A stretch of 64,000 nucleotides of DNA, from NCBI RefSeq assembly GCF_036170895.1, contig NZ_CP108036.1, positions 5,697,501 through 5,761,500 of the forward strand, read 5' to 3'. The position numbers and the translations under genes were made by a program. How positions within the stretch are numbered: position 1 is the first letter of the stretch; each line of letters opens with the position of its first letter. Under the pieces are notes generated by a model that was given only the letters and a program-made list of their open reading frames with translations, made no database searches and was not told the DNA's origin. This DNA is from Streptomyces erythrochromogenes (GTDB lineage Bacteria; Actinomycetota; Actinomycetes; Streptomycetales; Streptomycetaceae). Shown here one piece after another: positions 1,931-31,632 of the stretch.

Positions 1931-2554
1931 TCAGGACTTTTCCGGCGACGTCAGGTCGATCAGGCGGCAGACCGTTTCGATGTCGATCTTTACCTGGGCG
2001 ATCGAGGCGCGGCCCGACAGCCAGGTGATCAGCGCGGAGTGCCAGGTGTGCTCGATGACCCGGACGGCCGACAGCTGTTCCGCCGTCGGCGGGTGCTCCA
2101 GGCCCATCGCGTCCAGGATGATCGCCGTGGTCAGGCGGGACACGGTGTCGACCTCGGGGCTCACGCTGCGGTCCGCGAAGGTCAGCGCCCGCACCATCGC
2201 GTCGGCCAGCTGCGGCTCCCGCTGGAGGGCGCGGAAGGCGCGCATCAGGGTCTCCGCGACGCGTGCCGCCGGCTCGTCCCCGGCGGGCGGGCGCTTGCGC
2301 AGCGTGGTGTGCATGTGCTGGAGCTGGTCCTGCATGGTGGCGACCAGCAGGTGCACCTTGGACGGGAAGTAGCGGTAGAGCGTCCCCAGGGCCACGCCGG
2401 CGGCCTCGGCGACCTCGCGCATCTGGACGGCGTCGAAGCCGCCCCGGCTGGCCAGCTGGGCACTCGCGTGCAGGATCCGGCGGCGGCGTGCCTCCTGGCG
2501 CTCCGTCAGGGGAGGCGACGCCGGTGTGGTGACGGCCTTCACTTCCGCACTCAT
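1931..2554 (-). CDS. kstR: TetR-family repressor, KstR type (sterol/acyl-CoA catabolism regulator)
   Basis: 207 residues, the usual TetR length. The helix-turn-helix is at about residues 25-70 and contains GGFDAVQMREVAEAAGV and GTLYRYFPSKVHLLV. From memory these are very close to the DNA-binding domain of mycobacterial KstR, the repressor of cholesterol-degradation genes that responds to sterol-derived CoA thioesters. The call is supported independently by three perfect KstR-type operators in the window (2705-2718, 23195-23208, 28548-28561), two of which precede beta-oxidation genes of the kinds that KstR controls in Mycobacterium. The operator upstream of this gene, 151 bp before the ATG, could serve autoregulation. 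The C-terminal ligand domain is diverse, so the inducer (sterol CoA or another acyl-CoA) is inferred. Confidence 0.85.
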   Translation of the reverse strand: MSAEVKAVTTPASPPLTERQEARRRRILHASAQLASRGGFDAVQMREVAEAAGVALGTLYRYFPSKVHLLVATMQDQLQHMHTTLRKRPPAGDEPAARVAETLMRAFRALQREPQLADAMVRALTFADRSVSPEVDTVSRLTTAIILDAMGLEHPPTAEQLSAVRVIEHTWHSALITWLSGRASIAQVKIDIETVCRLIDLTSPEKS

Positions 2555-2704
2555 GTGTCCCGTTCCGTGTCGTTGCGCGGGCTGTTTCCGGGCTGATCCG
2601 CAGCCAGCATCTCAGGCGCCGCGGTCGTGGCGCGAATCACCTGCTCCATCTCTTACGGTGTGGTTTCCGGCCGGTAGATTCAATGCTCTTGGACGGATCA
2701 AGTC

Positions 2705-2718
2705 TGAAACTTGTTCTA
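2705..2718. promoter_or_regulatory. KstR-type operator between kstR and the GT4 operon
   Basis: TGAAACTTGTTCTA fits the mycobacterial KstR consensus TNNAACNNGTTNNA at every fixed base. It lies in the 217-bp divergent region, 54 bp before the glycosyltransferase GTG and 151 bp before the kstR ATG. It could control either gene or both. Confidence 0.75.
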
Positions 2719-2771
2719 CATTATCCGAGCGGTTACGCTCCGGCGAAAGTGCAGTGAGAAGGGGGCCGAGA

Positions 2772-4091
2772 GTGACCGCTGAGGCCGTGGCGACGAGCCC
2801 TTTCGCGGGTCCCGCCGACGACGGTGAGCGTCCGCTGCGCATCGCCCTCCTCACCTATAAGGGGAACCCGTTCTGCGGCGGTCAGGGCGTCTACGTACGT
2901 CACCTCTCGCGCGAGCTGGTCCGCCTCGGGCACTCCGTCGAGGTCATCGGCGCGCAGCCCTACCCGGTGCTCGACACGGGTGCCACGCTCACCGAGCTGC
3001 CGAGCCTCGACCTGTACCGCAGCCCCGACCCCTTCCGTACGCCGGGGCGCGACGAGTACCGGGACTGGATCGACGCCCTCGAGGTCGCGACGATGTGGAC
3101 CGGCGGCTTTCCCGAGCCGCTGACGTTCTCGCTGCGCGCCCGCCGCCATCTGCGGGATCGGGCGGGCGAGTTCGACGTCATCCACGACAACCAGACCCTC
3201 GGCTACGGTCTGCTCGGCGACCTCGGCGCGCCGCTGGTGACGACGATCCACCACCCCATCACCGTCGACCGCAAGCTCGACCTCGACGCCGCGCAGGGCC
3301 GCGTGAAGCGGGCCTCCGTGCGCCGCTGGTACGCCTTCACCCGCATGCAGGGCCGCGTGGCCCGCAAGCTGCCGTCCGTGCTCACCGTCTCCGGGTCCTC
3401 CCGGCAGGAGATCGCCGACCACCTCGGCGTCCGGGACGAGCGCATCCACGTCGTGCACATCGGCGCCGACACCGACCTGTGGTCGCCCGACGCGTCGGTG
3501 GCGGAGGTGCCCGGCCGCATCGTGACCACCTCCAGCGCCGACGTGCCGCTCAAGGGCCTGGTCTTCCTCGTCGAGGCGCTCGCGAAGCTGCGCACCGAGC
3601 AGCCCGACGCCCACCTCGTCGTGGTCGGCAAGCGCGCCGAGCAGGGCCCCGTGGCCCGCGCCATCGAGACGTACGGCCTCCAGGACGCCGTCCGCTTCGT
3701 CAAGGGCATCACCGACGCCGAGCTCGTCGACCTGGTGCGCAGCGCGCAGGTGGCGTGCGTGCCGTCGCTGTACGAGGGCTTCTCGCTCCCGGCGGCCGAG
3801 GCCATGGCCACCGGCACCCCGCTCGTGGCCACCACCGGCGGTGCGATCCCCGAGGTCGCCGGACCCGACGGCGAGACCTGCCTCGCCGTGCCGCCCGGCG
3901 ACGCCGGCGCGCTGGCCGCCGCGCTGGGCCGGATGCTGGGCGATCCACAGCTGCGGGCCCGCCTCGGCGCGGCCGGACGCGAACGGGTCCTGACCCGTTT
4001 CACCTGGGCCGCCGCCGCCGAGGGAACCGCCGCGCACTACCGTGCCGCCATCGAGCAGTCCCGGGCCGCCCGCAGCCGCCGCGCGCGGTGA
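2772..4091 (+). CDS. GT4-family (GT-B fold) glycosyltransferase
   Basis: 439 residues from the GTG at 2772, chosen because AGAAGGGGG precedes it; homology also begins here. The N-terminal Rossmann domain starts LRIALLTYKGNPFCGGQGVY, with the Gly-Gly-Gln-Gly loop typical of GT4 enzymes. The C-terminal domain has the family EX7E motif in YEGFSLPAAEAMATG, which holds the nucleotide-sugar donor. GT4 enzymes are retaining transferases that build polysaccharides, glycolipids or glycosides; the acceptor here is unknown. The methyltransferase and toroid genes follow on the same strand within 65 bp or by direct overlap, so the three probably work on one product. A KstR-type operator lies 54 bp upstream. 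Confidence 0.85.
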   Translation: MTAEAVATSPFAGPADDGERPLRIALLTYKGNPFCGGQGVYVRHLSRELVRLGHSVEVIGAQPYPVLDTGATLTELPSLDLYRSPDPFRTPGRDEYRDWIDALEVATMWTGGFPEPLTFSLRARRHLRDRAGEFDVIHDNQTLGYGLLGDLGAPLVTTIHHPITVDRKLDLDAAQGRVKRASVRRWYAFTRMQGRVARKLPSVLTVSGSSRQEIADHLGVRDERIHVVHIGADTDLWSPDASVAEVPGRIVTTSSADVPLKGLVFLVEALAKLRTEQPDAHLVVVGKRAEQGPVARAIETYGLQDAVRFVKGITDAELVDLVRSAQVACVPSLYEGFSLPAAEAMATGTPLVATTGGAIPEVAGPDGETCLAVPPGDAGALAAALGRMLGDPQLRARLGAAGRERVLTRFTWAAAAEGTAAHYRAAIEQSRAARSRRAR

Positions 4092-4155
4092 CCTTCCGCC
4101 TCATCCACACCGTCCCCACCCCCGTACACCCCCGCGACCGCGAAGGCAGGACCCC

Positions 4156-4890
4156 GTGCTGACCGTCGATTTCTCCCGGTTCCCGCTCGCCGCAGGCGAT
4201 CGCGTACTCGACCTCGGCTGCGGCGCAGGCCGCCACGCCTTCGAGTGCTACCGGAGAGGCGCCCAGGTGGTCGCCGTCGACCGCAACGGCGAGGAGATCC
4301 GCGAGGTCGCCAAGTGGTTCGCCGCGATGAAGGAGGCCGGTGAGGCCCCGGCCGGTGCCACCGCCACCGCGATGGAGGGCGACGCCCTGGCCCTGCCCTT
4401 CCCCGACGACTCCTTCGACGTCGTCATCATCTCCGAGGTGATGGAGCACATCCACGACGACAAGGGCGTGCTCGCGGAGATGGTCCGCGTGCTCAAGCCG
4501 GGCGGGCGCATCGCCATAACCGTCCCGCGCTACGGCCCGGAGAAGATCTGCTGGGCGCTGTCCGACGCCTACCACGAGGTCGAGGGCGGCCACATCCGCA
4601 TCTACAAGGCGGACGAGCTGCTCGGCAAGATGCGGGCCGCGGGCCTCAAGCCGTACGGCACGCACCACGCGCACGGGCTGCACTCGCCGTACTGGTGGCT
4701 CAAGTGCGCCTTCGGCGTGGACAACGACAAGGCGCTGCCGGTCAAGGCGTACCACAAGCTCCTGGTCTGGGACATCATGAAGAAGCCGCTCGCGACGCGG
4801 CTCGCGGAGCAGGCCCTCAACCCGCTCATCGGCAAGAGCTTCGTCGCGTACGCGACCAAGCCCCACCTTCCCGTCGGCGCGACCCAGTGA
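4156..4890 (+). CDS. Class I SAM-dependent methyltransferase (UbiE/Methyltransf_11 type)
   Basis: 244 residues from the GTG at 4156, with GAAGGCAGGA just upstream. Motif I is VLDLGCGAGRHAFE, followed by an acidic end of strand beta-2 (VVAVDRNGEE) and motif IV/post-I in FDVVIISEVMEHIHD. VLKPGGRIAITVPR is the conserved motif VI region. This architecture transfers a methyl group from S-adenosylmethionine to a small molecule or lipid. The gene sits between the glycosyltransferase and the toroid gene and its stop codon overlaps the next start (GTGA), so it belongs to the same operon. The substrate is unknown. Confidence 0.85.
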   Translation: MLTVDFSRFPLAAGDRVLDLGCGAGRHAFECYRRGAQVVAVDRNGEEIREVAKWFAAMKEAGEAPAGATATAMEGDALALPFPDDSFDVVIISEVMEHIHDDKGVLAEMVRVLKPGGRIAITVPRYGPEKICWALSDAYHEVEGGHIRIYKADELLGKMRAAGLKPYGTHHAHGLHSPYWWLKCAFGVDNDKALPVKAYHKLLVWDIMKKPLATRLAEQALNPLIGKSFVAYATKPHLPVGATQ

Positions 4891-5969
4891 GCTCGCCCGG
4901 GCGTACCGAACACCTCGTCCTGGATGGCGTACTGACCGCGGAGCAGGCCGCCGAGACGGTCGCGGGCATCCTCGCGGTGCAGCGCGCCGACGGCGCCATC
5001 CCGTGGTTCCGCGGTCACCACCTCGACCCGTGGGACCACACCGAGGCGGCGATGGCGCTGGACGCGGCCGGGGAGCACGAGGCGGCCGACCGGGCGTACG
5101 CGTGGCTGGCCCGGCACCAGAACCAGGACGGTTCCTGGTACGCGGCCTACGCCGACCGGCCCGACGGTGTGGACACCGCCGAGCCGCAGGACGCGAGCCG
5201 CGAGAGCAACTTCACCGCCTACATAGCCGTCGGCGTCTGGCACCACTACCTGTCGACCGGCGACGACACCTTCCTCGACCGCATGTGGCCGTCCGTCCAC
5301 TCTGCCGTGGAGTGCGTGCTGTCGCTGCAACAGCCGGGTGGCGAGATCGGCTGGAAGCGGGAGGCGGACGGCACGCCGGTCACCGACGCGCTGCTGACCG
5401 GGTCCTCCTCCATCCACCAGGCGCTGCGCTGCGCGCTGGCGATCGCCGAGCACCGCGAGGAACCGCAGCCGGACTGGGAGCTCGCGGCGGGCGCGCTGCG
5501 GCATGCGATACGCCGTCACCCCGAGCGGTTCCTGGACAAGGACCACTACTCGATGGACTGGTACTACCCGGTCCTCGGGGGCGCCCTGACGGGCGAGGAG
5601 GCGAAGGCGCGGATCGAGGGGCGCTGGGACGAGTTCGTGGTCCCGGACCTGGGGGTGCGGTGCGTCCTGCCGAACCCGTGGGTGACGGGCGGCGAGTCCT
5701 GCGAGCTGGCGATCGCCCTGTGGGCGACGGGGGAGTCGGACCGGGCGCTGGAGATCCTGCGGTCGATCGGTCACCTGCGCGCGGACAACGGCATGTACTG
5801 GACGGGGTACGTCTTCCAGGACGAGGCGGTGTGGCCGGTGGAGCAGACGACGTGGACCGCCGGGTCGCTGCTGCTGGCCGTCGCGGCGCTGGGCGGGGAC
5901 GAGGCCACCACCGAGGTGTTCGGCGGGGGTTCGCTCCCGGCCGGGCTGGAGCCGGACTGCTGCGGCTGA
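4887..5969 (+). CDS. Alpha/alpha-toroid protein resembling prenyltransferase/squalene-cyclase repeat proteins
   Basis: 360 residues from the GTG at 4887, which overlaps the TGA of the methyltransferase gene (GTGA). It carries QW-like repeats: ILAVQRADGAIPWF near residue 30, WLARHQNQDGSWYAAYAD near 75 and VLSLQQPGGEIGW near 150. These are the kind found in terpene cyclases, protein prenyltransferase subunits and six-hairpin glycosidases. No cyclase DXDD or DDXXD motif is evident, so a catalytic cyclase role is doubtful. Homologues are usually labelled 'prenyltransferase' on the fold alone. Tight coupling suggests it acts on, or helps to make, the glycosyltransferase/methyltransferase product. 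Confidence 0.65.
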   Translation: MSSPGRTEHLVLDGVLTAEQAAETVAGILAVQRADGAIPWFRGHHLDPWDHTEAAMALDAAGEHEAADRAYAWLARHQNQDGSWYAAYADRPDGVDTAEPQDASRESNFTAYIAVGVWHHYLSTGDDTFLDRMWPSVHSAVECVLSLQQPGGEIGWKREADGTPVTDALLTGSSSIHQALRCALAIAEHREEPQPDWELAAGALRHAIRRHPERFLDKDHYSMDWYYPVLGGALTGEEAKARIEGRWDEFVVPDLGVRCVLPNPWVTGGESCELAIALWATGESDRALEILRSIGHLRADNGMYWTGYVFQDEAVWPVEQTTWTAGSLLLAVAALGGDEATTEVFGGGSLPAGLEPDCCG

Positions 5970-5986
5970 GCCGGACCTGACGTACG

Positions 5987-6026
5987 GAAGGGGCCCTTCC
6001 CGCCCGATGGCGGGGAGGGCCCCTTC
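5987..6026. terminator. Bidirectional hairpin terminator
   Basis: GAAGGGGCCCTTCC (5987-6000) pairs, with one mismatch, with the segment ending GGGCCCCTTC (to 6026). It lies between the convergent toroid gene and the small membrane protein gene at 6063 and could serve both. Confidence 0.75.
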
Positions 6027-6062
6027 GCGTGCCCGCGGGGCGGGGCGTGGGGGCGCGCGGCG

Positions 6063-6365
6063 TCAGCGGCGGTAGAGCCATCCGGCGACGGCGTGGCCGA
6101 CCAGGACGTAGACGACGGCGGCCAGGCCGTAGCCGATGACGACCTGGACCCATTCGCGGCTGAAGGTGAACAGGTCGTAGGACCAGCCGGCCAGCCAGCT
6201 CGCGGCGTCATGGATGAAGTTGACCAGTTCGTTGCCCTGGTTGGCGTCCAGGAACCAGAGCAGGATCCACAGGACGATCACGAAGGCAAGCACGTCCGCC
6301 ACCAGAGCGACGGCCCGGCCTGCCTGACTGCTTCCTCGGGTGCGTACTCGCGTGTGTGAGGTCAT
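6063..6365 (-). CDS. Small membrane protein, two transmembrane segments
   Basis: 100 residues from the ATG at 6365. A basic N-terminus is followed by a membrane segment around ALVADVLAFVIVLWILLWFL, a loop with LVNFIHDAASWLAGW, and a second hydrophobic segment VVIGYGLAAVVYVLVGHAVA before a short basic end. The layout is typical of small actinobacterial membrane proteins with no assigned function. It is divergent from the lipoprotein-like gene at 6478 and convergent with the toroid gene. No strong Shine-Dalgarno sequence is visible, so the start is moderately certain. Confidence 0.6.
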   Translation of the reverse strand: MTSHTRVRTRGSSQAGRAVALVADVLAFVIVLWILLWFLDANQGNELVNFIHDAASWLAGWSYDLFTFSREWVQVVIGYGLAAVVYVLVGHAVAGWLYRR

Positions 6366-6477
6366 GCTGCGCGTGTTGCCGCCCAGGCGCGTCGCAAACC
6401 CGAACGGGTCCGCCGGGTGGCGGGCCCGCGGGGCCGGGGTGAGGCTGCGGGTGACGCCTGAGTCCCCGGAGGAAACC

Positions 6478-7116: not shown

Positions 7117-7194
7117 CCCCCCCGACCGTCGTGCGGCCCCGGGCCGGGGCGGGCGTCGCCGCCCCCTCGGCCGCGGGGCTGTTTGAATGGGCGG

Positions 7195-7590: not shown

Positions 7591-7640
7591 GCCGCCGTGA
7601 GCCGCCGTGAGCCGCCGTGAGTCGCCGTGAGCTGCCGTGA
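7581..7640. repeat. Six tandem 10-bp units across a stop codon
   Basis: Six consecutive 10-bp units in register. The first is CTCGCCGTGA, three are GCCGCCGTGA, and two are variants (GTCGCCGTGA, GCTGCCGTGA). The TGA in the first unit ends the upstream gene, so every copy carries the stop. Slipped-strand duplication of the gene end is the simplest origin. Confidence 0.9.
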
Positions 7641-7646
7641 GCCGAC

Positions 7647-7687: not shown

Positions 7688-7705
7688 CTGGTGCCGTGCG
7701 GGCGG

Positions 7706-10623: not shown

Positions 10624-11634
10624 TCAGCTGTTGAGCTCCGCCAGCACGCGCAGGGTGTGCGGGTCCGGAGCCGTCACCAGGAGGTCCGTCACCGGGCCCT
10701 TGCGCCACAGCTCCAGTCGCTCCGCGATCCGCTCGCGCGGTCCCACCAGCGAGATCTCGTCGGCGAAGGCGTCCGGGACGGCGAGTACCGCCTCCTCCTT
10801 GCGGCCCGTGAGGAAGAGCTCCTGGATGCGGCGGGCCTCTTCCTCGTAGCCCATCCGGGCCATCAGGGCGGCGTGGAAGTTGCGGGCCTCGTGTCCCATG
10901 CCGCCGATGTAGAAGCCGAGCATGGCCTTGACCGGGAGCAGTCCTTCGGCGACGTCGTCGCAGACGTGCGCCCGCGCCATCGGCGCGATCATGAAGCCTT
11001 CGGGGAGGTCGGCCAGCGAGGCCTGGTAGGCGTCGGTGCGGGTCGGCGACCAGTACAGGGGCAGCCAGCCGTCCGCGATCCGGGTGGTCTGAGCGATGTT
11101 CTTCGGGCCTTCGGCACCCAGCAGGAGCGGGAGGCCGGCGCGCAGCGGGTGGGTGATGGGCTTGAGGGGCTTGCCGATCCCGGTTCCGTCCTCGCCGCGG
11201 TACGGGTGGCTGTGGAAGCGGCCGTCCAGCGCGACGGGGCCCTCGCGGCGCAGGACCTGGCGGATGACGTCGACGTACTCGCGGGTCGCGGTCAGAGGGC
11301 TCGCGGGGAACGGGCGCCCGTACCAGCCCTCGACCACCTGTGGGCCGGACAGGCCCAGGCCCAGCATCATCCGGCCGCCGGAGAGGTGGTCCAGGGTGAG
11401 GGCGTGCATGGCGGTGGCGGTCGGGGTGCGGGCGGCCATCTGCGCGATGGCGGTGCCCAGGCGGATCCGCGAGGTGTGCGCGGCGATCCAGGTCAGGGGG
11501 GTGAAGGCGTCGGAGCCCCAGGCTTCGGCGGTCCACACGGAGTCGTAGCCGAGCCTCTCGGCCTCGGTGGCGAGGTCGAGGTGGGCGGGGTTGGGGCCGC
11601 GGCCCCAGTAGCCGAGTGCGAGTCCGAGGCGCAT
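10624..11634 (-). CDS. LLM-class F420-dependent oxidoreductase
   Basis: 336 residues, typical of the luciferase-like monooxygenase family. The TIM-barrel start is MRLGLALGYWGRGPN. Family signatures include DSVWTAEAWGSDAF, RIRLGTAIAQMAARTPT, LDHLSGGRMMLGLGLSGPQV and IADGWLPLYWSP. In actinomycetes most members of this branch use the deazaflavin F420 rather than FMN. An NADPH:F420 reductase is encoded at 61050 in the same window. The ATG is preceded by GGAGGG at a suitable distance. The substrate is unknown, and neighbouring genes give no hint. Confidence 0.85.
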   Translation of the reverse strand: MRLGLALGYWGRGPNPAHLDLATEAERLGYDSVWTAEAWGSDAFTPLTWIAAHTSRIRLGTAIAQMAARTPTATAMHALTLDHLSGGRMMLGLGLSGPQVVEGWYGRPFPASPLTATREYVDVIRQVLRREGPVALDGRFHSHPYRGEDGTGIGKPLKPITHPLRAGLPLLLGAEGPKNIAQTTRIADGWLPLYWSPTRTDAYQASLADLPEGFMIAPMARAHVCDDVAEGLLPVKAMLGFYIGGMGHEARNFHAALMARMGYEEEARRIQELFLTGRKEEAVLAVPDAFADEISLVGPRERIAERLELWRKGPVTDLLVTAPDPHTLRVLAELNS

Positions 11635-11686
11635 GGGGCGGGTCCCTCCAGCCGGAACTGACGATGCGTCAGGCGACTGTAGGGCA

Positions 11687-23101: not shown

Positions 23102-23194
23102 CTCAAGGCCCTGCAGAGGGGAACGCAGGGCGGCCGCGTCCCGCTGGGCGGCGACGGCCCGGGAAGAACACCCCCATCTGACCTTCCGTCAGAT

Positions 23195-23208
23195 TGGAAC
23201 GTGTTCTA
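23195..23208. promoter_or_regulatory. KstR-type operator in front of the FadE34-like gene
   Basis: TGGAACGTGTTCTA is a perfect TNNAACNNGTTNNA match. It overlaps a -10-like TAGTCT (23207-23212) that lies seven bases before the ATG at 23220, so bound repressor would block a leaderless promoter directly. Confidence 0.85.
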
Positions 23209-23219: not shown

Positions 23220-25352
23220 ATGGGCATCGGAATCACACAGGAGCAGCGGGAGTTGGCCGAGGCGGTGCGCGGCTGGGTGGCGCGGGCCGTGCCTCCCGAA
23301 GAGGTGCGCAAGCTGCTCGACTCCCCGCCGCGGACCGGGGTGCGGCCCGGCTACTGGGACGCTCTGGCGGAGTCGGGGCTCCTGGAGCCGCACCTGGAGG
23401 GCGGGACCCTGCTCGACCTGGCCGTCGTCGTCGAGGAGGCGGCCCGGGCCGCGCTGCCGGGCGCGTACCTGCCGAGCGCGCTGGCCTCCGTACTGCTGGA
23501 CCGGGCCGGGGCCGAGCCCCTCGCCGGCCGGGTCGGGGCGGTGGCGCTGGGGCCGGGGACCGTGACCGCCGTGGCCACCGAGGGCGGCGGGCACCTGCTC
23601 GACGGGCTCGCGCCGCCCGTGCTCGGAGCCGGCGAGGCCGACCTCGTGCTGCTCGCCGCGGAGGCCGCGCACGGGACCTGCTGGTTCGCCGTGGACGCCG
23701 CCGCGCTGGACATCCGTACGCACGACAGCGCCGACCCGACCCGCCCCACCGCCGAGGTGCGGGCGCGCGGCGCGGTGGTCCCCGCCGGGCGGCTGCTGGA
23801 GCTCGACGCTGCCCTCGTCCGCGACCTCGCCTGCACGCTCTTCGCCGCCGACGCCTGCGGCACCGCTGCCTGGGCCCTGCACACGGCCGCCGAGTACGCC
23901 AAGGTGCGCGAGCAGTTCGGCCGGCCCATCGGGAAGTTCCAGGGCGTCAAGCACCTGTGCGCCGACATGCTCGTCCGGCTGGAACAGGCCCGCGCTCTGG
24001 CCTGGGACGCAGCTCAGGCCATGGACGAGCCCGCCGACGTGCGCTCGCTCGTGGCGGCCCTCGCCGCCGGGACCGCCCTGGACGCCGCGTACTCCTGCGC
24101 CAAGGACTGCATCCAGATCCTCGGCGGGATCGGCTTCACCTGGGAGCACGACGCCCACATCCACCTGCGGCGGGCGGTCGTCGCCCGCCAGCTGCTCGGA
24201 CCCGGCGACGGGCACCGCGTACGGGCCGTGCGCTGCGCGGCGGGCGGTGCGCGGCGCGAGCTGCGCCTGGAGCTGCCGGCGCAGGCCGAGGCCCACCGAG
24301 CGAAGGCGCGCGCCGCCATCGAGGACGCGCGCGGACTCGACCCGGCCGCCGCCCGGCGGATCCTGGCCCCCACCGGCTACGCGGCGCCCTACCTGCCGCC
24401 GCCCTACGGGCTGGGCGCCGGGCCCGTCGAGCAGCTCGTCGTCCAGCAGGAGCTCGCGGCCGCCGGGGTCACGGTCTCCGACCTCGGCATCGCCACCTGG
24501 ATCGTGCCCTCCCTGCTGGCCTACGGGACGCAGGCGCAGCGCGACGCCTACGTGCTCCCCACCCTGCGCGGGGAGATCACCTGGTGCCAGCTCTTCTCCG
24601 AGCCGGGCGCCGGCTCCGACCTGGCCTCGCTGCGGACCCGGGCCGAGCGGCGTGAGGACGGCTCCTGGGTGGTCAACGGGCAGAAGGTGTGGACGAGTTC
24701 CGCGCACAGCGCCGACTTCGGGATCCTGCTGGCCCGTACCGACCCGGACGCGCCCAAGCACAAGGGGCTCGGCTACTTCGTCGTCGACATGAAGAACACC
24801 CCCGGCATCGACGTCCGGCCGCTGAAGGAGATCACCGGGGAGGCCCTCTTCAACGAGGTGTACCTCGACGACGTGGAGCTCCCGGCGGACGCGCTGGTCG
24901 GCGCGGCCGACGACGGCTGGAAGGTGGCCCGCAACACCCTCGGCAACGAACGGGTGCACATGGCCGACCAGATGACCTTCGACACCGGACTGGAGGCCCT
25001 CCTCGCCCGGGCCGCCGAGCTCGACGGCGCCCACCGGGCCCGGATCGGCGCGCTGGCCGCCGAGGCGCACGCCCTGGCCTGCATCGGGCTGCGCACCACG
25101 CTCCAGCAGGTGTCGGGGCTGGAGCCGGGCGCGGGTGCCTCCGTACGCAAACTCGTCCAGACCCCGCACCAGCAGCGGACCGCCGAGCTCGCGCTCGAAC
25201 TGCTGGGGCCGGCGGGCGCGGTGCGGGAGGGGGCGGGGGAGCAGGCGGTGCACGGGATGCTCATGTCCCGCTGCCTGACCATCGCCGGGGGCACCACGCA
25301 GGTCCAGCTCAACGTCGTCGCCGAGCGGATTCTCGGCCTTCCCAGGGACTAG
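23220..25352 (+). CDS. fadE34: Fused two-domain acyl-CoA dehydrogenase, FadE34 (ChsE3)-like
   Basis: 710 residues from the ATG at 23220, close to the 711 residues I recall for Mycobacterium tuberculosis FadE34. Two acyl-CoA dehydrogenase modules are joined. The N-terminal half (about 1-345) has YAKVREQFGRPIGKFQGVKH and IQILGGIGFTWEHDAHIHLRR. The C-terminal half has ITWCQLFSEPGAGSDLASLR, the FAD/substrate strand WVVNGQKVWTSSAHSADFG and NEVYLDDVELPADALVG. In mycobacteria such fusions replace an alpha2beta2 heterotetramer and oxidise steroid side-chain CoA thioesters. No Shine-Dalgarno sequence precedes the ATG. The operator upstream and the thiolase gene 12 bp downstream support the role. A generic branched acyl-CoA substrate remains possible. 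Confidence 0.82.
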   Translation: MGIGITQEQRELAEAVRGWVARAVPPEEVRKLLDSPPRTGVRPGYWDALAESGLLEPHLEGGTLLDLAVVVEEAARAALPGAYLPSALASVLLDRAGAEPLAGRVGAVALGPGTVTAVATEGGGHLLDGLAPPVLGAGEADLVLLAAEAAHGTCWFAVDAAALDIRTHDSADPTRPTAEVRARGAVVPAGRLLELDAALVRDLACTLFAADACGTAAWALHTAAEYAKVREQFGRPIGKFQGVKHLCADMLVRLEQARALAWDAAQAMDEPADVRSLVAALAAGTALDAAYSCAKDCIQILGGIGFTWEHDAHIHLRRAVVARQLLGPGDGHRVRAVRCAAGGARRELRLELPAQAEAHRAKARAAIEDARGLDPAAARRILAPTGYAAPYLPPPYGLGAGPVEQLVVQQELAAAGVTVSDLGIATWIVPSLLAYGTQAQRDAYVLPTLRGEITWCQLFSEPGAGSDLASLRTRAERREDGSWVVNGQKVWTSSAHSADFGILLARTDPDAPKHKGLGYFVVDMKNTPGIDVRPLKEITGEALFNEVYLDDVELPADALVGAADDGWKVARNTLGNERVHMADQMTFDTGLEALLARAAELDGAHRARIGALAAEAHALACIGLRTTLQQVSGLEPGAGASVRKLVQTPHQQRTAELALELLGPAGAVREGAGEQAVHGMLMSRCLTIAGGTTQVQLNVVAERILGLPRD

Positions 25353-25364: not shown

Positions 25365-26552
25365 ATGAAGTCGTACATCGTGGGCGTGGGCATGACGAAG
25401 TTCGAGAAGCCCGAGTCGCGGGACTGGCAGTACTGGGACATGGCGAAGGAGGCCGGGTCCGCGGCGCTCGCGGACGCGGGCGTGGACTACGGGCTGGTGC
25501 AGCAGGTACCGGTCGGCTACTGCTTCCAGGCCTCCACGGCCGGCCAGCGCGCGGCGTACGAGCTGGGGCTGAGCGGGGTGCCGGTCTACAACGTCAACAA
25601 CAACTGCGCGACCGGGGCGACGGCGCTGATGATGGCGCGGCAGTTCGTGGAGGGCGGCCTGAGCGACTGCGTGCTGGCGCTGGGCTTCGAGAAGATGAAG
25701 CGGGGCGCGCTGGGCGGTGGCGCGGACGGAGGAGACTTCAAGACCTCGCCGGTGGCCCGGCACTACGGGATCATGGCGGCGGGGCACGGCTTCGAGATGT
25801 CCCCGCCCACGGCGCAGATCTTCGGCAACGCGGCGCGGGAGCACATGGAGCGCCACGGGACCACGCCCGCGCAGCTGGCGGCGGTCGGCGCGAAGAACCA
25901 CCGGCACTCGGCGAACAACCCGAACGCGCAGTTCCAGGACGTCTACTCGGTGGAGGAGATCCTGGCGGCGAAGGAGATCCACGCACCGCTGACGAAGCTC
26001 CAGTGCTCGCCGACCTCGGACGGCGCGGCGGCGGCCCTGGTGGTGTCCGAGCGGTTCCTGGTGGCGCACGGGCTGCACGACAGGGCGGTGGAGATCGTCG
26101 GGCAGGCGATGGCCACGGACACGGAGGAGTCGTTCGCGTCGGGCTCCTGCATCGACGTGGTCGGCAAGCCGATGAGCGCGGCGGCGGCCCGGCAGGTGTA
26201 CGAGGCGTCCGGGCTCGGCATCGAGGACGTGGACGTGGTGGAACTGCACGACTGCTTCTCGATCAACGAGCTGCTGACGTACGAGGCGCTGGGCATGTGC
26301 GAGGACGGGGCCGCGGGCAAGCTGGTGGAGAGCGGGGCCACGACGTACGGGGGCCGGTGGGTGGTCAACCCCTCGGGCGGGCTCATCTCCAAGGGCCACC
26401 CGCTGGGGGCGACGGGCCTCGCCCAGGCCGCGGAACTGGTCTGGCAACTGCGGGGCGAAGCGGGGGCGCGGCAGGTCGCGGGCGCCCGCACCGGCCTGGC
26501 CCACAACATCGGCCTGGGCGGCGCGGCGGTCGTGACCATGCTGCGCCGCTGA
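25365..26552 (+). CDS. SCP-x-type thiolase (lipid-transfer protein/acetyl-CoA acetyltransferase)
   Basis: 395 residues. It is a thiolase-fold enzyme of the SCP-x/Ltp class: YNVNNNCATGATALMMARQF with the nucleophilic Cys at about 81, VVELHDCFSINELLTYEALG, and NPSGGLISKGHPLGATGLAQ with the catalytic His at about 344. HNIGLGGAAVVTMLRR closes the fold. No sterol-carrier SCP-2 domain follows, as in mycobacterial Ltp proteins of about 400 residues. The reaction is cleavage (or retro-aldol cleavage in some Ltp enzymes) of beta-ketoacyl or sterol-CoA side chains. It is 12 bp downstream of the FadE34-like gene and shares its transcript and presumably its KstR control. Confidence 0.85.
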   Translation: MKSYIVGVGMTKFEKPESRDWQYWDMAKEAGSAALADAGVDYGLVQQVPVGYCFQASTAGQRAAYELGLSGVPVYNVNNNCATGATALMMARQFVEGGLSDCVLALGFEKMKRGALGGGADGGDFKTSPVARHYGIMAAGHGFEMSPPTAQIFGNAAREHMERHGTTPAQLAAVGAKNHRHSANNPNAQFQDVYSVEEILAAKEIHAPLTKLQCSPTSDGAAAALVVSERFLVAHGLHDRAVEIVGQAMATDTEESFASGSCIDVVGKPMSAAAARQVYEASGLGIEDVDVVELHDCFSINELLTYEALGMCEDGAAGKLVESGATTYGGRWVVNPSGGLISKGHPLGATGLAQAAELVWQLRGEAGARQVAGARTGLAHNIGLGGAAVVTMLRR

Positions 26553-26572
26553 CCCCCCGCCCCGCCGCCGGG

Positions 26573-27001: not shown

Positions 27002-27129
27002 GACGGACCTCTCCACGAACCGGATCGAGGAGCCTCATCCTGGTCCAGTACGGGCGCGGGCGCTGCGCCGGAATCCGTCAATCGGTGGCCCGGACCGAAC
27101 GGTCGGCTCCGTGCCGGGCCGTGCCGGGG

Positions 27130-27414
27130 TCAACGGGACGCCGGTTTCAGTTCGCACCGCCCATCCGTGCACTCGCGGCGGAGCCGGCCCCGGGAGACGG
27201 TCTCGGCCAGGCCGATCGCCCAGCACATCGGGCAGCCGCGCAGCGCGACCAGCCCGACCGGCGCGAGGAGCAGGGTGGCCGGGCCGAAGACCGGGATGAG
27301 GGCGAAGGCCGCGATCAGCGCGCCGAAGCCCACCCCGCCGCGCGCCAGGTGCCGCGGCACGGACGCGCTCGCGAAGCCGGATCCGGAGGAAGCTGCGGTG
27401 TCAGTGGTGGGCAC
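27130..27414 (-). CDS. Small membrane protein with CPMCW motif, downstream of the sigma factor
   Basis: 94 residues. A hydrophobic stretch (GALIAAFALIPVFGPATLLL, probably two short helices) is followed by LVALRGCPMCWAIGLAETVSR and then RECTDGRC. Four Cys in two pairs (CPMC and CTDGRC) are unusual for so small a protein and could bind a metal or form redox disulphides. The start overlaps the end of the sigma-factor gene by 14 bp, so it is in the same operon. It lacks the HxxxCxxC signature of ZAS anti-sigma factors, so calling it an anti-sigma factor is only an idea. Confidence 0.6.
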   Translation of the reverse strand: MPTTDTAASSGSGFASASVPRHLARGGVGFGALIAAFALIPVFGPATLLLAPVGLVALRGCPMCWAIGLAETVSRGRLRRECTDGRCELKPASR

Positions 27415-27946
27415 GGGTGTCTCCCAGGGTGTGCTGGAGCGCCGCGCGGGCGCGGTGGAGCCGCGACTTCATCGCGGCGGTGCTCAGGCCGAGGGCCTCG
27501 GCGGCGGTCCGCCCGCTGTGGCCCTGGACGTCCCGCATGATCAGCACGCGCCGCTGGTCCGCCGGCAGCGCGGCGATGGCCTCCGCCACCCGCCCCGCCT
27601 CCAGGCGCCGCAGCACCTCGTCCTCGGCGGACATGACGGCCGTGTCCGGCAGCGGCGCCCGCTCCCTCGGCACCAGCCGGGCGCGGCGCAGGCACTCGTT
27701 GCGGACGATGCGGAACATCCACGACGCCAGCGCCCCGGACGCCCTGAGCATCCCGACCCTGCGGTACAGGATGATCAGCGCCTCCTGGGCCGCGTCCTCG
27801 GCGTCCTCGCGCGACGCGCACAGGGAGTGCGCGAAGCGGCGTACGTTCGGATGCGCCCCGGCGACCAGCGCGGTGAGCGAATCGAGGTCACCGGCCTGCG
27901 CGGCGACGACCAGCGCCTCGCCCGGCCAGTCCGTACGGTCAGCCAC
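27401..27946 (-). CDS. ECF-type RNA polymerase sigma factor
   Basis: 181 residues from the GTG at 27946. Sigma region 2 has VVAAQAGDLDSLTALVAG and EDAEDAAQEALIILYRRVG with the core-binding acidic helix. Region 2.4 is GALASWMFRIVRNECLRRARL. Region 4 has AIAALPADQRRVLIMRDVQGHSG and the HTH AEALGLSTAAMKSRLHRARAAL. It has no SnoaL-like tail. The stop overlaps the next gene by 14 bp, and its GTG overlaps the stop region of the 30-residue ORF upstream. The promoter class it recognises is not deducible. Confidence 0.9.
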   Translation of the reverse strand: MADRTDWPGEALVVAAQAGDLDSLTALVAGAHPNVRRFAHSLCASREDAEDAAQEALIILYRRVGMLRASGALASWMFRIVRNECLRRARLVPRERAPLPDTAVMSAEDEVLRRLEAGRVAEAIAALPADQRRVLIMRDVQGHSGRTAAEALGLSTAAMKSRLHRARAALQHTLGDTRAHH

Positions 27947-28031
27947 GGGCCCGGCCCCGCTTGCGCAGGACGGCGACGGTGCACGCGCAGAGCAGGACGG
28001 CCGCGCCGGCGACGACGAGAACAGTGATCAC
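27939..28031 (-). CDS. 30-residue single-pass membrane peptide coupled to the sigma factor
   Basis: GTG at 28031 with a GGAGG six bases before it, a very good ribosome binding site; TGA at 27939-27941. The peptide has one membrane segment (VLVVAGAAVLLCACTVAVL) with two Cys and a basic tail (RKRGRARG), so it would sit with the tail inside. The ORF overlaps the sigma-factor GTG by eight bases, so the sigma gene is translationally coupled to it. I infer a small sensor or regulatory peptide; no family can be named. Confidence 0.65.
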   Translation of the reverse strand: MITVLVVAGAAVLLCACTVAVLRKRGRARG

Positions 28032-28103
28032 GAAAACCTCCAGGTCAGGTGCCGACCTCGGCGTCGGCAACATACACAAGAGGCGCGGGCACCCCGAAAG
28101 GAT

Positions 28104-28466
28104 TCACCCCAGGGCCGGATCGATCACCGTCTCGCCCGTCGAGGCCCGGCGGATCGCGTCCGCGAGGTCCTCCACCCGGCCGTCCCGAACGATCAGCCCC
28201 GCCGCTCCGGCGGCGAGCGCGGCCTCCCGAAGACCGGGGCGCGCCGAGCCCGTCAGGACCAGGACCCGGCACTCCGGATCGTCCTCCAGCAGGGCGGTCA
28301 CCGCCGCGAGATCCTCCACCAGGGCCACCTCCGGGCGGGCCGCCGGGTCCCGCACGACGTCGATGTCCGGCTGGAGGCCGAGCTGGATCGCCAGGGCCGG
28401 ATTGTGCGGCTCCAGCAGGACCCGCAGGGTGCGGGTCCGGCGGTGTTCCACGGGCATTTCTTCCAC
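28104..28466 (-). CDS. Orphan degenerate receiver domain (NarL/DesR-like without HTH)
   Basis: 120 residues. The fold follows a NarL-type receiver: LRVLLEPHNPALAIQLGLQP at strand beta-1 and helix alpha-1, then CRVLVLTGSARPGLREAALA, GAAGLIVRDGRVEDLADAIRRAS and GETVIDPALG. It lacks the acidic pair (EPHN in place of a usual ED or DD), has no clear phospho-Asp in PEVALVEDLA, and stops where the linker to an HTH would begin. It therefore cannot be a normal phosphorylated DNA-binding regulator. It may be a pseudo-receiver with a protein-binding role or a decayed gene. A KstR operator lies 82 bp upstream of its start. Confidence 0.6.
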   Translation of the reverse strand: MEEMPVEHRRTRTLRVLLEPHNPALAIQLGLQPDIDVVRDPAARPEVALVEDLAAVTALLEDDPECRVLVLTGSARPGLREAALAAGAAGLIVRDGRVEDLADAIRRASTGETVIDPALG

Positions 28467-28547
28467 CGGGAAAGCCTATCTGACGGGGAGTCAAGAGTCT
28501 TCCCAAGTGCGGGGGCGTGCGTTATACATTCCCTCACCGGCCGAGCC

Positions 28548-28561
28548 TAGAACGCGTTCTA
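28548..28561. promoter_or_regulatory. KstR-type operator between the receiver gene and the MaoC operon
   Basis: TAGAACGCGTTCTA, inside the 16-bp perfect palindrome CTAGAACGCGTTCTAG (28547-28562), is a perfect TNNAACNNGTTNNA match. It lies 114 bp before the MaoC ATG. Confidence 0.9.
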
Positions 28562-28582
28562 GAACCGGCCGCCCCGCATACG

Positions 28583-28622
28583 ACCTCGGTGCGGCCGACG
28601 GTGCGGACGGCCGCACCGAGGT
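28583..28622. promoter_or_regulatory. Perfect 15-bp hairpin in the MaoC leader
   Basis: 28583-28597 pairs exactly with 28608-28622; the loop is ten bases. The arms begin ACCTCGGTGC and end GCACCGAGGT. It lies between the KstR operator and the ATG, with no run of T after it. It may be an attenuator, a mRNA stabiliser or an unrecognised operator. Confidence 0.6.
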
Positions 28623-28674
28623 CTTCCAGGGCAGCGATTTTCCCGCCACACCGACGACAGGGAGCCGCATCCTC

Positions 28675-29529
28675 ATGCCGATCGATGCCGCCAGGGCCCT
28701 CGCCGCAGACCCCCGTCAGGGGGACATCGGCTGGGACCACAAGGACGTCCAGCTCTACCACCTCGGCCTCGGCGCGGGCCTGCCGGCCACCGACCCGGAC
28801 GAACTGCGCTACACCCTCGAATCCAAGCTCCACGTCCTGCCCAGCTTCGCGACCGTCGCCGGAGCCGGCATGGCCATGCTGGGCGGCCTCGCCGCTCCCG
28901 GCATCGAGGTCAACCTCGCAGCCGTCCTGCACGGCGGCCACTCCATCGAGCTGCACCGGCCCATCCCCGTCAAGGGGCGGGCCACCTCCAGCTCCAAGGT
29001 CGCCGCCGTCTACGACAAGGGCAAGGCGGCCGTGATCGTGCTGCGCTCCGAGGTCGCCGACGCCGACGGGCCGCTGTGGACCAGCGACGCGCAGATCTTC
29101 GTGCGGGGAGAGGGCGGCTTCGGCGGCGAGCGCGGCCCCTCCGCCAAGGAGGAGCTGCCCGGGCGCGAACCCGACCGGGTCGAGGAGCGGCACATCCGCG
29201 AGGACCAGGGACTCCTCTACCGCCTCTCCGGCGACTGGAACCCGCTGCACGCCGACCCCGAGTTCGCCAAGCTGGCCGGCTTCGACAAGCCGATCCTGCA
29301 CGGCCTGTGCTCGTACGGCATGACCCTCAAGGCCGTCGTCGACACGGCCCTCGGCGGGGACGTCTCCCGCGTCCGCGCCTACCGGACGCGCTTCGCCGGG
29401 ATCGTCTTCCCGGGCGAGACGCTGCGCATCCGGATGTGGCAGGAGACCGGCCGCGTCCTGGTGTCGGTGACCGCCGTCGAACGGGACGACGCGCCGGTCC
29501 TCGCCGACACCGTCGTCGAACACTCGTAG
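28675..29529 (+). CDS. MaoC-like enoyl-CoA hydratase, Hsd4B-like
   Basis: 284 residues from the ATG at 28675, near the roughly 286 I recall for M. tuberculosis Hsd4B. It has two hot-dog halves. The C-terminal half carries the hydratase-2 motif GDWNPLHADPEFAKLAGF, with catalytic Asp and His at about 186 and 191, then KPILHGLCSYG. The N-terminal half has the substrate-side DELRYTLESKLHVLPSFATV. Hydratase-2 enzymes add water to 2-enoyl-CoA to give (R)-3-hydroxyacyl-CoA; Hsd4B does this on steroid side-chain intermediates. It heads an operon with ADH and SDR genes behind a KstR operator, which supports a role in the same pathway as FadE34. Confidence 0.82.
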   Translation: MPIDAARALAADPRQGDIGWDHKDVQLYHLGLGAGLPATDPDELRYTLESKLHVLPSFATVAGAGMAMLGGLAAPGIEVNLAAVLHGGHSIELHRPIPVKGRATSSSKVAAVYDKGKAAVIVLRSEVADADGPLWTSDAQIFVRGEGGFGGERGPSAKEELPGREPDRVEERHIREDQGLLYRLSGDWNPLHADPEFAKLAGFDKPILHGLCSYGMTLKAVVDTALGGDVSRVRAYRTRFAGIVFPGETLRIRMWQETGRVLVSVTAVERDDAPVLADTVVEHS

Positions 29530-29550
29530 CACCCACTAAGGAGCCGCACC

Positions 29551-30627
29551 GTGCGCGCAGCACTGCAGAGCGAGATCGGCCAGGACAAGCTGGAAGTCGT
29601 CGACGACATGGAAGCCGTGGGCTTCGGCCCCGGCAAGGTCAGGATCCGCGTCAAGGCCACCGGCCTGTGCCACTCCGACCTCTCCGCGATGAGCGGCGTC
29701 CTGCCGCAGCCCGCCCCCTTCATCCCGGGCCACGAGGGCTCCGGCGTGATCACCGATGTCGGTGACGGAGTCACCGGCCACACGATCGGCGACCGCGTCC
29801 TCGTCTGCTGGCTGCCGCCGTGCGGCCACTGTCCGTCCTGCAAGCGCGGCCAGGGCCACCTGTGCCTGGAGGCCTTCGGGAACGTCGCCACTCCCAACTT
29901 CAAGCGGGCGTCGAGCGACATCTTCGGCTTCGCCGGCACCGGCACCTTCTCCGAGGAGATGGTCGTCCCCGCCGCCTGCGCCATCCCGATCCCCGACGAC
30001 CTCCCCTTCGACATCGCGGCGCTGATCGGCTGCGGTGTCACCACCGGACTCGGCGCGGCCATCAACACCGCGAAGGTGGAGGCCGGTTCCTCGGTGGCCG
30101 TCATCGGCTGCGGCGGCGTCGGCATATCCGTCATCCAGGGCGCCAAGGTGCAGGGCGCCGCCCAGATCATCGCCGTCGACCCCGTCGAGTCCCGCCGCGA
30201 GGCGGCCCTGCGCTTCGGGGCCACCGAGGCGGTCTCCCCGGAGGAGTTCGCCGACGCCAAGAACCGGATCACCGCCGGCGAGGGCTTCGACTACGTCTTC
30301 GAGGTCGTCGGCAAGTCCGCGACCGCCCAGAAGGCGTACGAGATGACGCGGCGCGGCGGCTCCGTCGTCGTGGTCGGGGCCGGCGCCCTCGACGACAACT
30401 TCCAGATCAACATGTTCTCGCTGTTCTTCGACGAGAAGAAGATCCTGCCGTCGATGTACGGCGGCGGCGACGTGCTCCGCTCCTACGAGCGCACCATCGC
30501 CCTGTGGCGGGCCGGCCGCATCGACCTGTCGAACCTGATCACGCACCGGGTGAGCCTGGCCGAGGTCAACGACGCGCTCGACCAGATGCGCACCGGCGTC
30601 GCCCTGCGCACCTGCATCGAACTCTGA
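29551..30627 (+). CDS. Zinc-dependent medium-chain alcohol dehydrogenase
   Basis: 358 residues. GTG at 29551 with AAGGAG upstream. Catalytic zinc ligands are in ATGLCHSD (Cys) and IPGHEGSGVI (His), with the structural zinc site CGHCPSCKRGQGHLC at about 91-105. The Rossmann domain has VAVIGCGGVGISVIQGA and AVDPVESRREAALRFG. The overall pattern matches mycobacterial AdhB/AdhD and mycothiol-type dehydrogenases. In this position it probably oxidises a hydroxyl or aldehyde on the side chain being degraded. It lies 21 bp after the MaoC gene. Whether it truly takes part in beta-oxidation is inferred from the operon only. Confidence 0.83.
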   Translation: MRAALQSEIGQDKLEVVDDMEAVGFGPGKVRIRVKATGLCHSDLSAMSGVLPQPAPFIPGHEGSGVITDVGDGVTGHTIGDRVLVCWLPPCGHCPSCKRGQGHLCLEAFGNVATPNFKRASSDIFGFAGTGTFSEEMVVPAACAIPIPDDLPFDIAALIGCGVTTGLGAAINTAKVEAGSSVAVIGCGGVGISVIQGAKVQGAAQIIAVDPVESRREAALRFGATEAVSPEEFADAKNRITAGEGFDYVFEVVGKSATAQKAYEMTRRGGSVVVVGAGALDDNFQINMFSLFFDEKKILPSMYGGGDVLRSYERTIALWRAGRIDLSNLITHRVSLAEVNDALDQMRTGVALRTCIEL

Positions 30628-30690
30628 CCCGACCACCGATCCGACCACCGACCCGTTCCGCAGATCCGATCTCCGAGGGGAACCGTACGG

Positions 30691-31632
30691 ATGTCACTGC
30701 CACTTGAGGGACTCGCCGCCATCGTCACGGGGGCGGGCCGCGGGCTCGGCCGGGCCGAGGCGATCGAGCTCGCGCGGCTGGGCGCGAGCGTGGTCGTCAA
30801 CGACTTCGGCCAGCCCGGCCGGGACGGCTCGGGGGAGGCCTCGGCCGCCCCGGCGCAGGAGGTGGCCGAGGAGATCCGCGCCGCGGGCGGGCAGGCCGTC
30901 GCCCACCTCGGCGACGTGGCCGACTTCGAGCAGGCGCGCGAGCTGGTCGAGCTGGCGGTGGGCACGTACGGGAAGCTCGACATCCTGGTCAACAACGCGG
31001 GCATCCTGCGCGACCGGATGATCTTCTCGATGTCGGAGGAGGAATGGGACTCGGTGATCCGGGTCCACCTCAAGGGCCACTTCAACACCACCCACTTCGC
31101 GTCCGCCCACTGGCGCGAACGGTCCAAGGCGGCCGGCGGCCCGGTCTACGGCCGGATCGTCAACACCTCCTCCGAGGCCTTCCTCGGCGGCTCGGCCGGC
31201 CAGCCGAACTACGCCGCGGCCAAGGGAGGCATCGTGGGCCTCACGACCTCGACCGCCCTGGCCCTGGCCAAGTACGGGGTGACGGCCAACGCCATCTGCC
31301 CGCGCGCCCGCACCCGTATGACGCAGGACGTCTTCGCCGGCTTCGAGGTACCGGCGGACGGCAAGCTTGACGCCCTCGCCCCCGAGCACGTGGCGCCGCT
31401 CGTCGGCTACCTGGCCTCACCCGCCTCCGCCAAGGCGAACGGGCAGCTCTTCGTCGTGCACGGCGGCATCGTCGTCGTCATGGAACGCCCCAAGGTGGCG
31501 GCCAAGTTCGACACGGGCAAGGAGTCCTTCTCCTACGAGGAGCTCGACGAGGTCCTCACCCCGCACTACGACTCCCGCCCGGCCAACGAGACCTTCGCCG
31601 CGCCCGAGGTCCTCGGCCTCAAGCACGGCTGA
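30691..31632 (+). CDS. Short-chain dehydrogenase/reductase, Hsd4A-like (3-hydroxyacyl-CoA dehydrogenase)
   Basis: 313 residues, with GAGGGG before the ATG. It is a longer SDR of the D-bifunctional protein type: IVTGAGRGLGRAEAIELARL (NAD site), LDILVNNAGILRDRMI, RIVNTSSEAFLGG (catalytic Ser) and GQPNYAAAKGGIVGL (YxxxK). The length and the C-terminal extension (EELDEVLTPHYDSRPANETF) resemble M. tuberculosis Hsd4A (Rv3502c, about 317 residues), which oxidises 3-hydroxy-acyl-CoA and 17-beta hydroxyl groups in cholesterol side-chain catabolism. It closes the MaoC-ADH-SDR operon behind the KstR operator. FadE34, MaoC, SDR and thiolase together make one complete beta-oxidation cycle. Confidence 0.82.
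   Translation: MSLPLEGLAAIVTGAGRGLGRAEAIELARLGASVVVNDFGQPGRDGSGEASAAPAQEVAEEIRAAGGQAVAHLGDVADFEQARELVELAVGTYGKLDILVNNAGILRDRMIFSMSEEEWDSVIRVHLKGHFNTTHFASAHWRERSKAAGGPVYGRIVNTSSEAFLGGSAGQPNYAAAKGGIVGLTTSTALALAKYGVTANAICPRARTRMTQDVFAGFEVPADGKLDALAPEHVAPLVGYLASPASAKANGQLFVVHGGIVVVMERPKVAAKFDTGKESFSYEELDEVLTPHYDSRPANETFAAPEVLGLKHG

Follow-up and report, generated by a model that had tools for sequence, protein, structure and literature searches.

A predicted KstR-type regulon, dispersed over the chromosome of Streptomyces erythrochromogenes, for oxidising sterols and removing their side chain with the rings left closed

Analysis of a 64,000 nt stretch of the Streptomyces erythrochromogenes chromosome (GCF_036170895.1, NZ_CP108036.1, positions 5,697,501-5,761,500 of the forward strand; this whole stretch is termed the window) identified a gene for a TetR repressor resembling mycobacterial KstR, together with three perfect copies of a KstR-type operator. 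As judged from sequence comparison, the window is probably the centre of a KstR regulon that is dispersed over the whole chromosome and that would serve the oxidation of sterols and the removal of their side chain without opening of the rings. The repressor and the predicted operators of the window are as follows:

1931..2554, minus strand: KstR-like TetR repressor of 207 amino acids (NF033703, 198 bits; PF17925, 86 bits; KstR structures in the PDB, 138-139 bits; placed in the KstR clade of the tree)
2705..2718, no strand: predicted KstR operator TGAAACTTGTTCTA, between two genes, 150 bp upstream of kstR and 53 bp upstream of the gene for a GT4-family glycosyltransferase (GT4)
23195..23208, no strand: predicted KstR operator TGGAACGTGTTCTA, 11 bp before the start codon of the FadE34-like gene
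28548..28561, no strand: predicted KstR operator TAGAACGCGTTCTA, fully palindromic, upstream of the genes for a MaoC-type hydratase, an alcohol dehydrogenase (ADH) and a short-chain dehydrogenase (SDR)

An earlier reading of the window made from its letters alone (the sequence-only reading) had reported these three sites, and they proved to be the sole full matches to TNNAACNNGTTNNA in the 64 kb, with 0.04 expected and none of 100 shuffles reaching three. The check that it had named, a scan of the full genome with a list of the genes downstream, found TNNAACNNGTTNNA at 30 places compared to 7 for the reversed pattern and points to a regulon far larger than the window. Twelve of the 30 places were within genes and 18 were intergenic (gene starts and intergenic calls being those of a gene caller written for this analysis). 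Seven of the 18 were of another type, TTGAACNNGTTCAA, and six of the remaining 11 face sterol genes or kstR, namely the three window sites and those at genes for a cholesterol oxidase (614279), an acyl-CoA dehydrogenase (ACAD; 7336155) and a FadD19/EchA19-like pair (7443612). Searching with the half-palindrome TAGAACNNGTT gave 23 matches (21 places) genome-wide against 4 in the control; 12 of these places were intergenic, nine of them at sterol or kstR genes, and this pattern added CYP125/FadA5 (5678724), a second ACAD (4189520) and a second site at the cholesterol oxidase (614177). Predicted operators were found at fadE34, cyp125/fadA5 and fadD19/echA19, the genes by which a KstR regulon is recognised here, and in the promoter region of kstR itself.

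The TTGAACNNGTTCAA palindromes, located at 1223103, 1223144, 3385385, 3385429, 4511645, 4703890 and 7971831, stand before unrelated genes, and among eight of their neighbouring proteins that were scanned three matched Pfam families (trypsin-like, flavin reductase and DUF6777). They probably belong to another regulator and were not counted as KstR sites.

Recurrence of the operators in other Streptomyces was scored mostly on the 30 best-matching loci per search, rather than on all matches. A perfect site was present at 50 of 50 kstR loci, comprising the 30 nearest (this genome included) and 20 from genomes lacking the FadE34-like gene, and at all 30 FadE34-like loci (again with this genome included). 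Seventeen long stretches (18-19 kb), from genomes already among those 30, had a perfect site at FadE34 in every case, and the MaoC site was likewise perfect in all 15 that possess the MaoC set, which is absent from the other two; one extra perfect site was also seen. The genes lying between the FadE34 and MaoC operators vary by genome, with both operators staying in place. Of 30 cholesterol oxidase loci, 25 had a perfect site and five the TAGAACNNGTT half only. The EchA19 loci were perfect in 22 of 30, the other eight having one mismatch, and the CYP125 loci had the half-palindrome in 29 of 30 and a perfect site in none. For the ACAD at 4189572, for which the best 80 of 543 loci, from named genomes, were used, 42 were perfect, 63 were within one mismatch and 17 were worse, with none of the 80 within two mismatches in a control stretch 300-450 bp upstream.

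The enzymes encoded in the window that bear on this regulon are:

10624..11634, minus strand: F420-dependent LLM oxidoreductase of the Rv3520c subfamily (TIGR03559, 443 bits, cut-off 335)
23220..25352, plus strand: FadE34-like two-domain ACAD of 710 amino acids (43-45% identity to the kstR-divergent ACAD in five genomes of family f4)
25365..26552, plus strand: SCP2-type thiolase / lipid-transfer protein (6hsj, 513 bits; PRK08256, 614 bits, cut-off 436)
28675..29529, plus strand: MaoC-type hydratase, Hsd4B-like (MFE-2 hydratase 2 and MaoC domains; 1s9c, 195 bits)
29551..30627, plus strand: zinc ADH (domain and family matches)
30691..31632, plus strand: SDR, Hsd4A-like (PRK07792, 480 bits, cut-off 414)

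These identities agree with those of the sequence-only reading (two-domain ACAD, SCP2-type thiolase, MaoC, zinc ADH and SDR); its further claim that the set makes up one complete round of beta-oxidation does not follow, as the enzymes need not form a single round.

Further sterol enzymes are encoded elsewhere on the chromosome. The CYP125-like and FadA5-like proteins each scored 508 bits to solved structures of CYP125 and FadA5 respectively, and the cholesterol oxidase scored 756 bits to 1coy. The ACAD at 7336249 matched chain A of 4x28 (450 bits) and that at 4189572 matched Tcur3481 (197 bits) and chain D of 4x28 (175 bits). We take 4x28 to be the ChsE4-ChsE5 pair, and the two subunits of one such enzyme would here be encoded 3.1 Mb apart. 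A FadD19-like ligase (PRK07798, 732 bits, cut-off 543) adjoins echA19; PRK07798 is presumably the FadD19 group, which fits the place of the ligase. The EchA19-like hydratase exceeded the cut-off of PRK07799 (410 bits, cut-off 316) and scored 368 with the named EchA19 model (cut-off 400). It is followed by an OB-fold ChsH2-like protein and two proteins of the Ltp/thiolase type. A KstD is encoded at 7453455-7455170 (NF005882, 906 bits, over the equivalog cut-off of 788), with no KstR-type site there in the S. erythrochromogenes genome; in two other genomes (G040 and G095) the KstD orthologue is divergent from the cholesterol oxidase, with two KstR-type sites between them. Sterol is likely the substrate because both cholesterol oxidase and KstD are present, and the KstR-type motif in front of the sterol genes makes this very probable. 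The nearest named relatives of the genes from this genome belong to S. virginiae and similar strains.

With respect to the rings, KshA_C (E up to 0.001) and HsaA (E up to 1e-40, with 11 of 22 first-look candidates scored) gave no match in the S. erythrochromogenes genome, HsaB, HsaC and HsaD not having been searched individually. A complete cholesterol catabolic pathway, as recognised by KshA together with HsaA, was thus not found, and ring genes do not appear among the predicted KstR targets. The sequence-only reading had reported no ring-opening genes in the window, KstD included; this stands for the window, where no ring-opening enzyme was found among 20 proteins scanned, and does not extend to the genome, given the KstD described above. 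Its suggestion that a side chain is shortened without mineralisation of the ring fits the genome as a whole, in which cholesterol oxidase, CYP125, FadA5, FadD19/EchA19 and two ACADs carry KstR-type sites and KshA and HsaA are without a match.

Gene content was surveyed in 150 Streptomyces genomes. KstR was found in 140, CYP125 in 104, EchA19 in 103 and the FadE34-like gene in 53 (one of which, G079, matches at just 43% identity), and cholesterol oxidase orthologues (at least 77% identity) in 51, one of them part-length. CYP125 was present in all 53 genomes with the FadE34-like gene and occurred jointly with EchA19 in 102, with 36 genomes having KstR and neither CYP125 nor EchA19. KshA above 280 bits (a line set in this analysis) and HsaA over the model cut-off were each found in nine genomes; these were the same nine, all within the 53, so that gene content is nested from KstR through CYP125 and the FadE34-like gene to KshA/HsaA. 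Another 30 genomes matched the KshA_C model at approximately 21-101 bits, most of them over the Pfam cut-off of 23.3, and were not counted as having KshA; HsaA-like proteins below the cut-off were common (98 of 150 at 1e-40). Fisher tests of gene co-occurrence ignore kinship among genomes and were not used as evidence. Six 20-kb ring-cluster stretches from four other Streptomyces (L195-L200) contained no KstR-type site, and neither did two more from genome G070 (L369, L370), which has KstR paralogues there. In those genomes, side chain and ring are therefore not under one visible operator.

The protein encoded at 1931-2554 exceeded the cut-offs of both PF00440 (TetR_N) and PF17925 (TetR_C_20), the latter being a C-terminal domain that we take to be typical of KstR. 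In a tree of 49 proteins (midpoint root only), it fell within a KstR clade of 36 members (14 from Streptomyces and 22 from others; support 100/100), separate from a paralogue clade of 13 (support 100/100), several members of which adjoin HsaC/HsaD- or KstD-like genes. Perfect sites were found in nine of the 22 non-Streptomyces stretches of the KstR clade (132 kb in total, 2.7-4 kb each) and in none of the 13 paralogue stretches (83 kb). Five family-f4 stretches show kstR and a FadE34-like gene pointing away from each other on either side of a perfect site, and these repressors belong to the KstR clade. The KstR-like character that the sequence-only reading had given to this protein is upheld by the model, domain, structure and tree results, and the sequence data support its being an orthologue of mycobacterial KstR and argue for an origin of KstR and its sites older than the ancestor of Mycobacterium and Rhodococcus. 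Passages of PMC1995591 name SCO2319 as a possible S. coelicolor orthologue of KstR, at 32% identity and with synteny not conserved. A gene for a SARP-type regulator adjoins kstR (window positions 692-1915).

A second palindrome, TCTGACN5GTCAGA, was noticed beside the KstR-type sites. Its occurrences in the window are:

11657..11673, no strand: second palindrome with two mismatches, upstream of the LLM gene
23177..23193, no strand: second palindrome TCTGACCTTCCGTCAGA, exact, one base before the KstR site at 23195
28479..28495, no strand: second palindrome with two mismatches, upstream of MaoC, with a 52 bp gap to the KstR site

In this genome, the mismatches to the palindrome number none at the FadE34-like gene and FadD19/EchA19, one at CYP125 and at KstD, and two at MaoC and the Rv3520c-like LLM gene. 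Besides the window sites, it was noted beside side-chain genes at L094:16190, L098:9569 and L261:6295. Within the 328 kb of the genome scanned, there were 13 matches with up to two mismatches, some of them at other genes. Across loci and at the same threshold, the palindrome was found at FadE34 in 28 of 30, CYP125 in 30 of 30, EchA19 in 30 of 30, MaoC in 15 of 15 and the ACAD in 46 of 80, and just at 2 of 30 cholesterol oxidase loci and 1 of 50 kstR/GT4 loci (where it lies next to a different site in the same stretch). In G040 and G095 it is found, at two mismatches, with the KstD orthologue. When 120 scrambled palindromes of the same letters were scored with up to two mismatches, none reached the counts observed for FadE34, CYP125 or EchA19 (the best being 3, 5 and 7 of 30), and nine reached that of the cholesterol oxidase. 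At three mismatches there is no enrichment in the window (11 compared to 21.6 expected), and the weight of the second palindrome lies in the near-exact sites at orthologous promoters together with this scrambled control. At FadE34 it mostly lies 1 bp from the KstR site, the distance being 12 or 18 bp in four promoters; since the gap varies (1, 12, 18 and 52 bp), the palindrome is no mere -35 element. Most of the non-Streptomyces KstR stretches lack it.

On this basis we tentatively propose, at somewhat less than an even chance, a circuit with two keys, KstR and a second regulator reading TCTGACN5GTCAGA. Genes with a KstR site alone would be kstR/GT4 and the cholesterol oxidase (the entry into sterol attack); CYP125 and the CoA-dependent enzymes of the side chain would have both sites; and KstD and the Rv3520c-like oxidoreductase would, in this genome, have only the second palindrome. 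Such a circuit would let the cell harvest just the side chain of fungal or plant sterols and excrete the ring. A Pfam scan of ten neighbours for the second regulator found one AraC-type protein and no TetR. Two side observations concern these promoters. Some FadE34-like promoters (L050, L053-L056) carry an extra KstR-like core 31-34 bp from the perfect site, beyond the second palindrome. Genome G203 (L364, family f18) has five sites of the second palindrome with up to two mismatches in 14 kb around CYP125-like, KstR and FadA5-like genes, four of them intergenic.

The regulon could operate as follows. KstR dimers on TNNAACNNGTTNNA palindromes at or near promoters would keep the genes off, acting by repression rather than activation. 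When sterols are present (ergosterol from fungi or sterols from plants, for example), CYP125 and FadD19 would give rise to a sterol acyl-CoA, the proposed ligand that releases KstR from the DNA. Derepression would supply cholesterol oxidase (3-OH to 3-keto), CYP125 (terminal hydroxylation) and the FadD19-like ligase, as well as the enzymes for beta-oxidation of the side chain, namely the 4x28-type ACAD, the FadE34-like ACAD, EchA19, MaoC, SDR, FadA5, the SCP2-type thiolase and the Ltp-type enzymes. As there was no match in this strain to KshA and HsaA, on which ring opening depends, the shortened ring product, possibly 1-dehydrogenated by KstD, should exit the cell or serve another purpose. 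It would be a C19 compound in a cell that has the last side-chain round (ChsE1/E2, ChsH1-H2, Ltp2) and a C22 compound in one that lacks it.

A number of results weigh against this sterol regulon. Five of the 11 intergenic perfect sites that are not of the TTGAACNNGTTCAA type lie elsewhere, at genes for MelC1 (655760), PadR (372012) and a cutinase (930923) and at two places without annotation (2000812 and 3741997), and the CYP125/FadA5 sites of the S. erythrochromogenes genome have seven of the eight fixed bases. A scan of the whole genome with TAGAACNNGTTCTA allowing up to two mismatches gave 78 matches compared to 174 for the reversed control, that is, no enrichment; weak matches to the KstR motif are meaningless alone because the loose scan scores below this control, and such matching was dropped as evidence. 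The perfect site is missing from 8 of 30 EchA19 loci, 38 of 80 loci of the ACAD at 4189572 and 13 of the 22 non-Streptomyces stretches of the KstR clade. The repressor lies below the equivalog cut-off of NF033703 (280 bits), and its ligand domain is identical to that of one mycobacterial-type KstR from family f4 at 44 of 130 positions (approximately 34%), compared to 38 of 58 in the helix-turn-helix region; with the DNA-reading part kept and the ligand domain drifted, the ligand may differ. No KshA or HsaA match over the cut-off was obtained in 14 control genomes, leaving the nine positive Streptomyces as the sole positive control. Lastly, sections of a 2012 comparison (PMC3388012) place the origin of KstR and its sites in the Mycobacterium-Rhodococcus ancestor, with only paralogues further out.

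Several of these points would also suit a KstR-type regulon turned to another branched or isoprenoid acyl-CoA, from a terpenoid or a methyl-branched lipid for example, with sterols incidental. The diverged ligand domain, the lack of a KshA or HsaA match in this genome and the persistence of kstR with a perfect site in 7 of 20 examined genomes that have neither CYP125 nor EchA19 are in keeping with such a regulon. It is nevertheless improbable, since cholesterol oxidase has KstR-type sites at all 30 orthologous loci scored, KstD is divergent from that gene over two such sites in two genomes, CYP125 and FadA5 match their solved counterparts with the scores given above, and in vitro activity of a Streptomyces CYP125 as a cholesterol hydroxylase has been described (PMC9728343, in part). 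That the sites merely reflect the conservation of promoter sequence is very improbable. Orthologous promoters do share descent and the loose scans are not enriched; however, when 11 distinct FadE34-like promoters, unselected for sites, were aligned by start codon, the columns over both palindromes mostly had a major-base frequency of at least 0.8, compared to 0.3-0.6 for most columns 50-100 bp upstream, and the same palindrome is common to unlinked and unrelated promoters.

Another possibility concerns the operon that faces kstR across the operator at 2705:

2772..4091, plus strand: GT4-family glycosyltransferase, first gene facing the operator (domain match; beside kstR in other genomes)
4156..4890, plus strand: methyltransferase dependent on S-adenosylmethionine (domain match; present in 20 of 20 FadE34-lacking Streptomyces)
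4887..5969, plus strand: weakly amylase-like protein (TIGR01577, 56 bits compared to a cut-off of 821)

This operon (window positions 2772-5969) keeps its perfect operator even in genomes without the sterol genes and is a further, better conserved candidate target of KstR. A homology search with GT4 returned generic names only. The Streptomyces KstR might firstly regulate this operon, for a glycosylated lipid or envelope component, with the sterol genes added in some lineages. In favour of this, all 20 Streptomyces examined that lack the FadE34-like gene have kstR, GT4 and the methyltransferase together, along with a perfect operator, KstR is far more widespread than that gene (140 compared to 53 of 150 genomes), and GT4 adjoins kstR in six kstR loci of genus g39 (family f26, with a KstR match in eight genomes) and in one of two of genus g34. 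Yet the operator is perfect in only one of the six g39 loci (3.5-kb stretches), and the kstR-fadE34 arrangement over an operator in the five f4 stretches suggests that lipid-catabolic targets may be the older state. We regard a primary role in this operon as rather unlikely, although it is compatible with the sterol regulon and both could hold.

With the sterol regulon comes a candidate regulator for the joint induction of choD and cyp125 that has been reported for Streptomyces in contact with yeast. According to parts of a 2026 study (PMC13170338), choD and cyp125A13 of S. lavendulae YAKB-15 are upregulated in yeast co-culture, in which most of the ergosterol disappears and modified sterols appear; its main text, as far as available, is without KstR, and what the present analysis adds is the regulator together with the side-chain genes. 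In S. peucetius, CYP125A13 is a cholesterol C-27 hydroxylase (PMC9728343), and the available main text of that paper mentions neither KstR nor FadA5. Portions of a 2016 survey (PMC4810484) describe steroid-degradation pathways as rare in Streptomyces, with 55 of 57 genomes without them; a side-chain-only state would probably have been scored there as absent. Among the open-access papers listed in the literature searches, none had a title or displayed abstract on a Streptomyces KstR regulon. The gene counts predict which Streptomyces can strip sterol side chains (53 of 150 by the FadE34-like gene and 104 of 150 by CYP125), and gene content and visible operators alike set side-chain removal apart from the degradation of the ring. 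A second operator is also named, whose protein can be fished out, and strains stopping at C22 or C19 would be of practical interest as sources of steroid starting materials.

The closest known system is that of mycobacterial KstR (Rv3574 / MSMEG_6042). We take the mycobacterial gene pairs Rv3515c/3516 to be fadD19/echA19, Rv3520c/3521 to be ltp genes and Rv3545c/3546 to be cyp125/fadA5. In mycobacteria the KstR motif is also found at Rv3515c/3516, Rv3520c/3521 and Rv3545c/3546, and fadE34 lies beside kstR (PMC1995591, in part). The Streptomyces and mycobacterial systems have in common a TetR repressor, the TNNAACNNGTTNNA operator and a set of side-chain targets. They differ in that KshA and HsaA were not found in S. 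erythrochromogenes, that the Streptomyces targets are spread over several Mb with kstR facing GT4 and not fadE34, and that Streptomyces has a cholesterol oxidase under KstR-type sites as well as the second palindrome.

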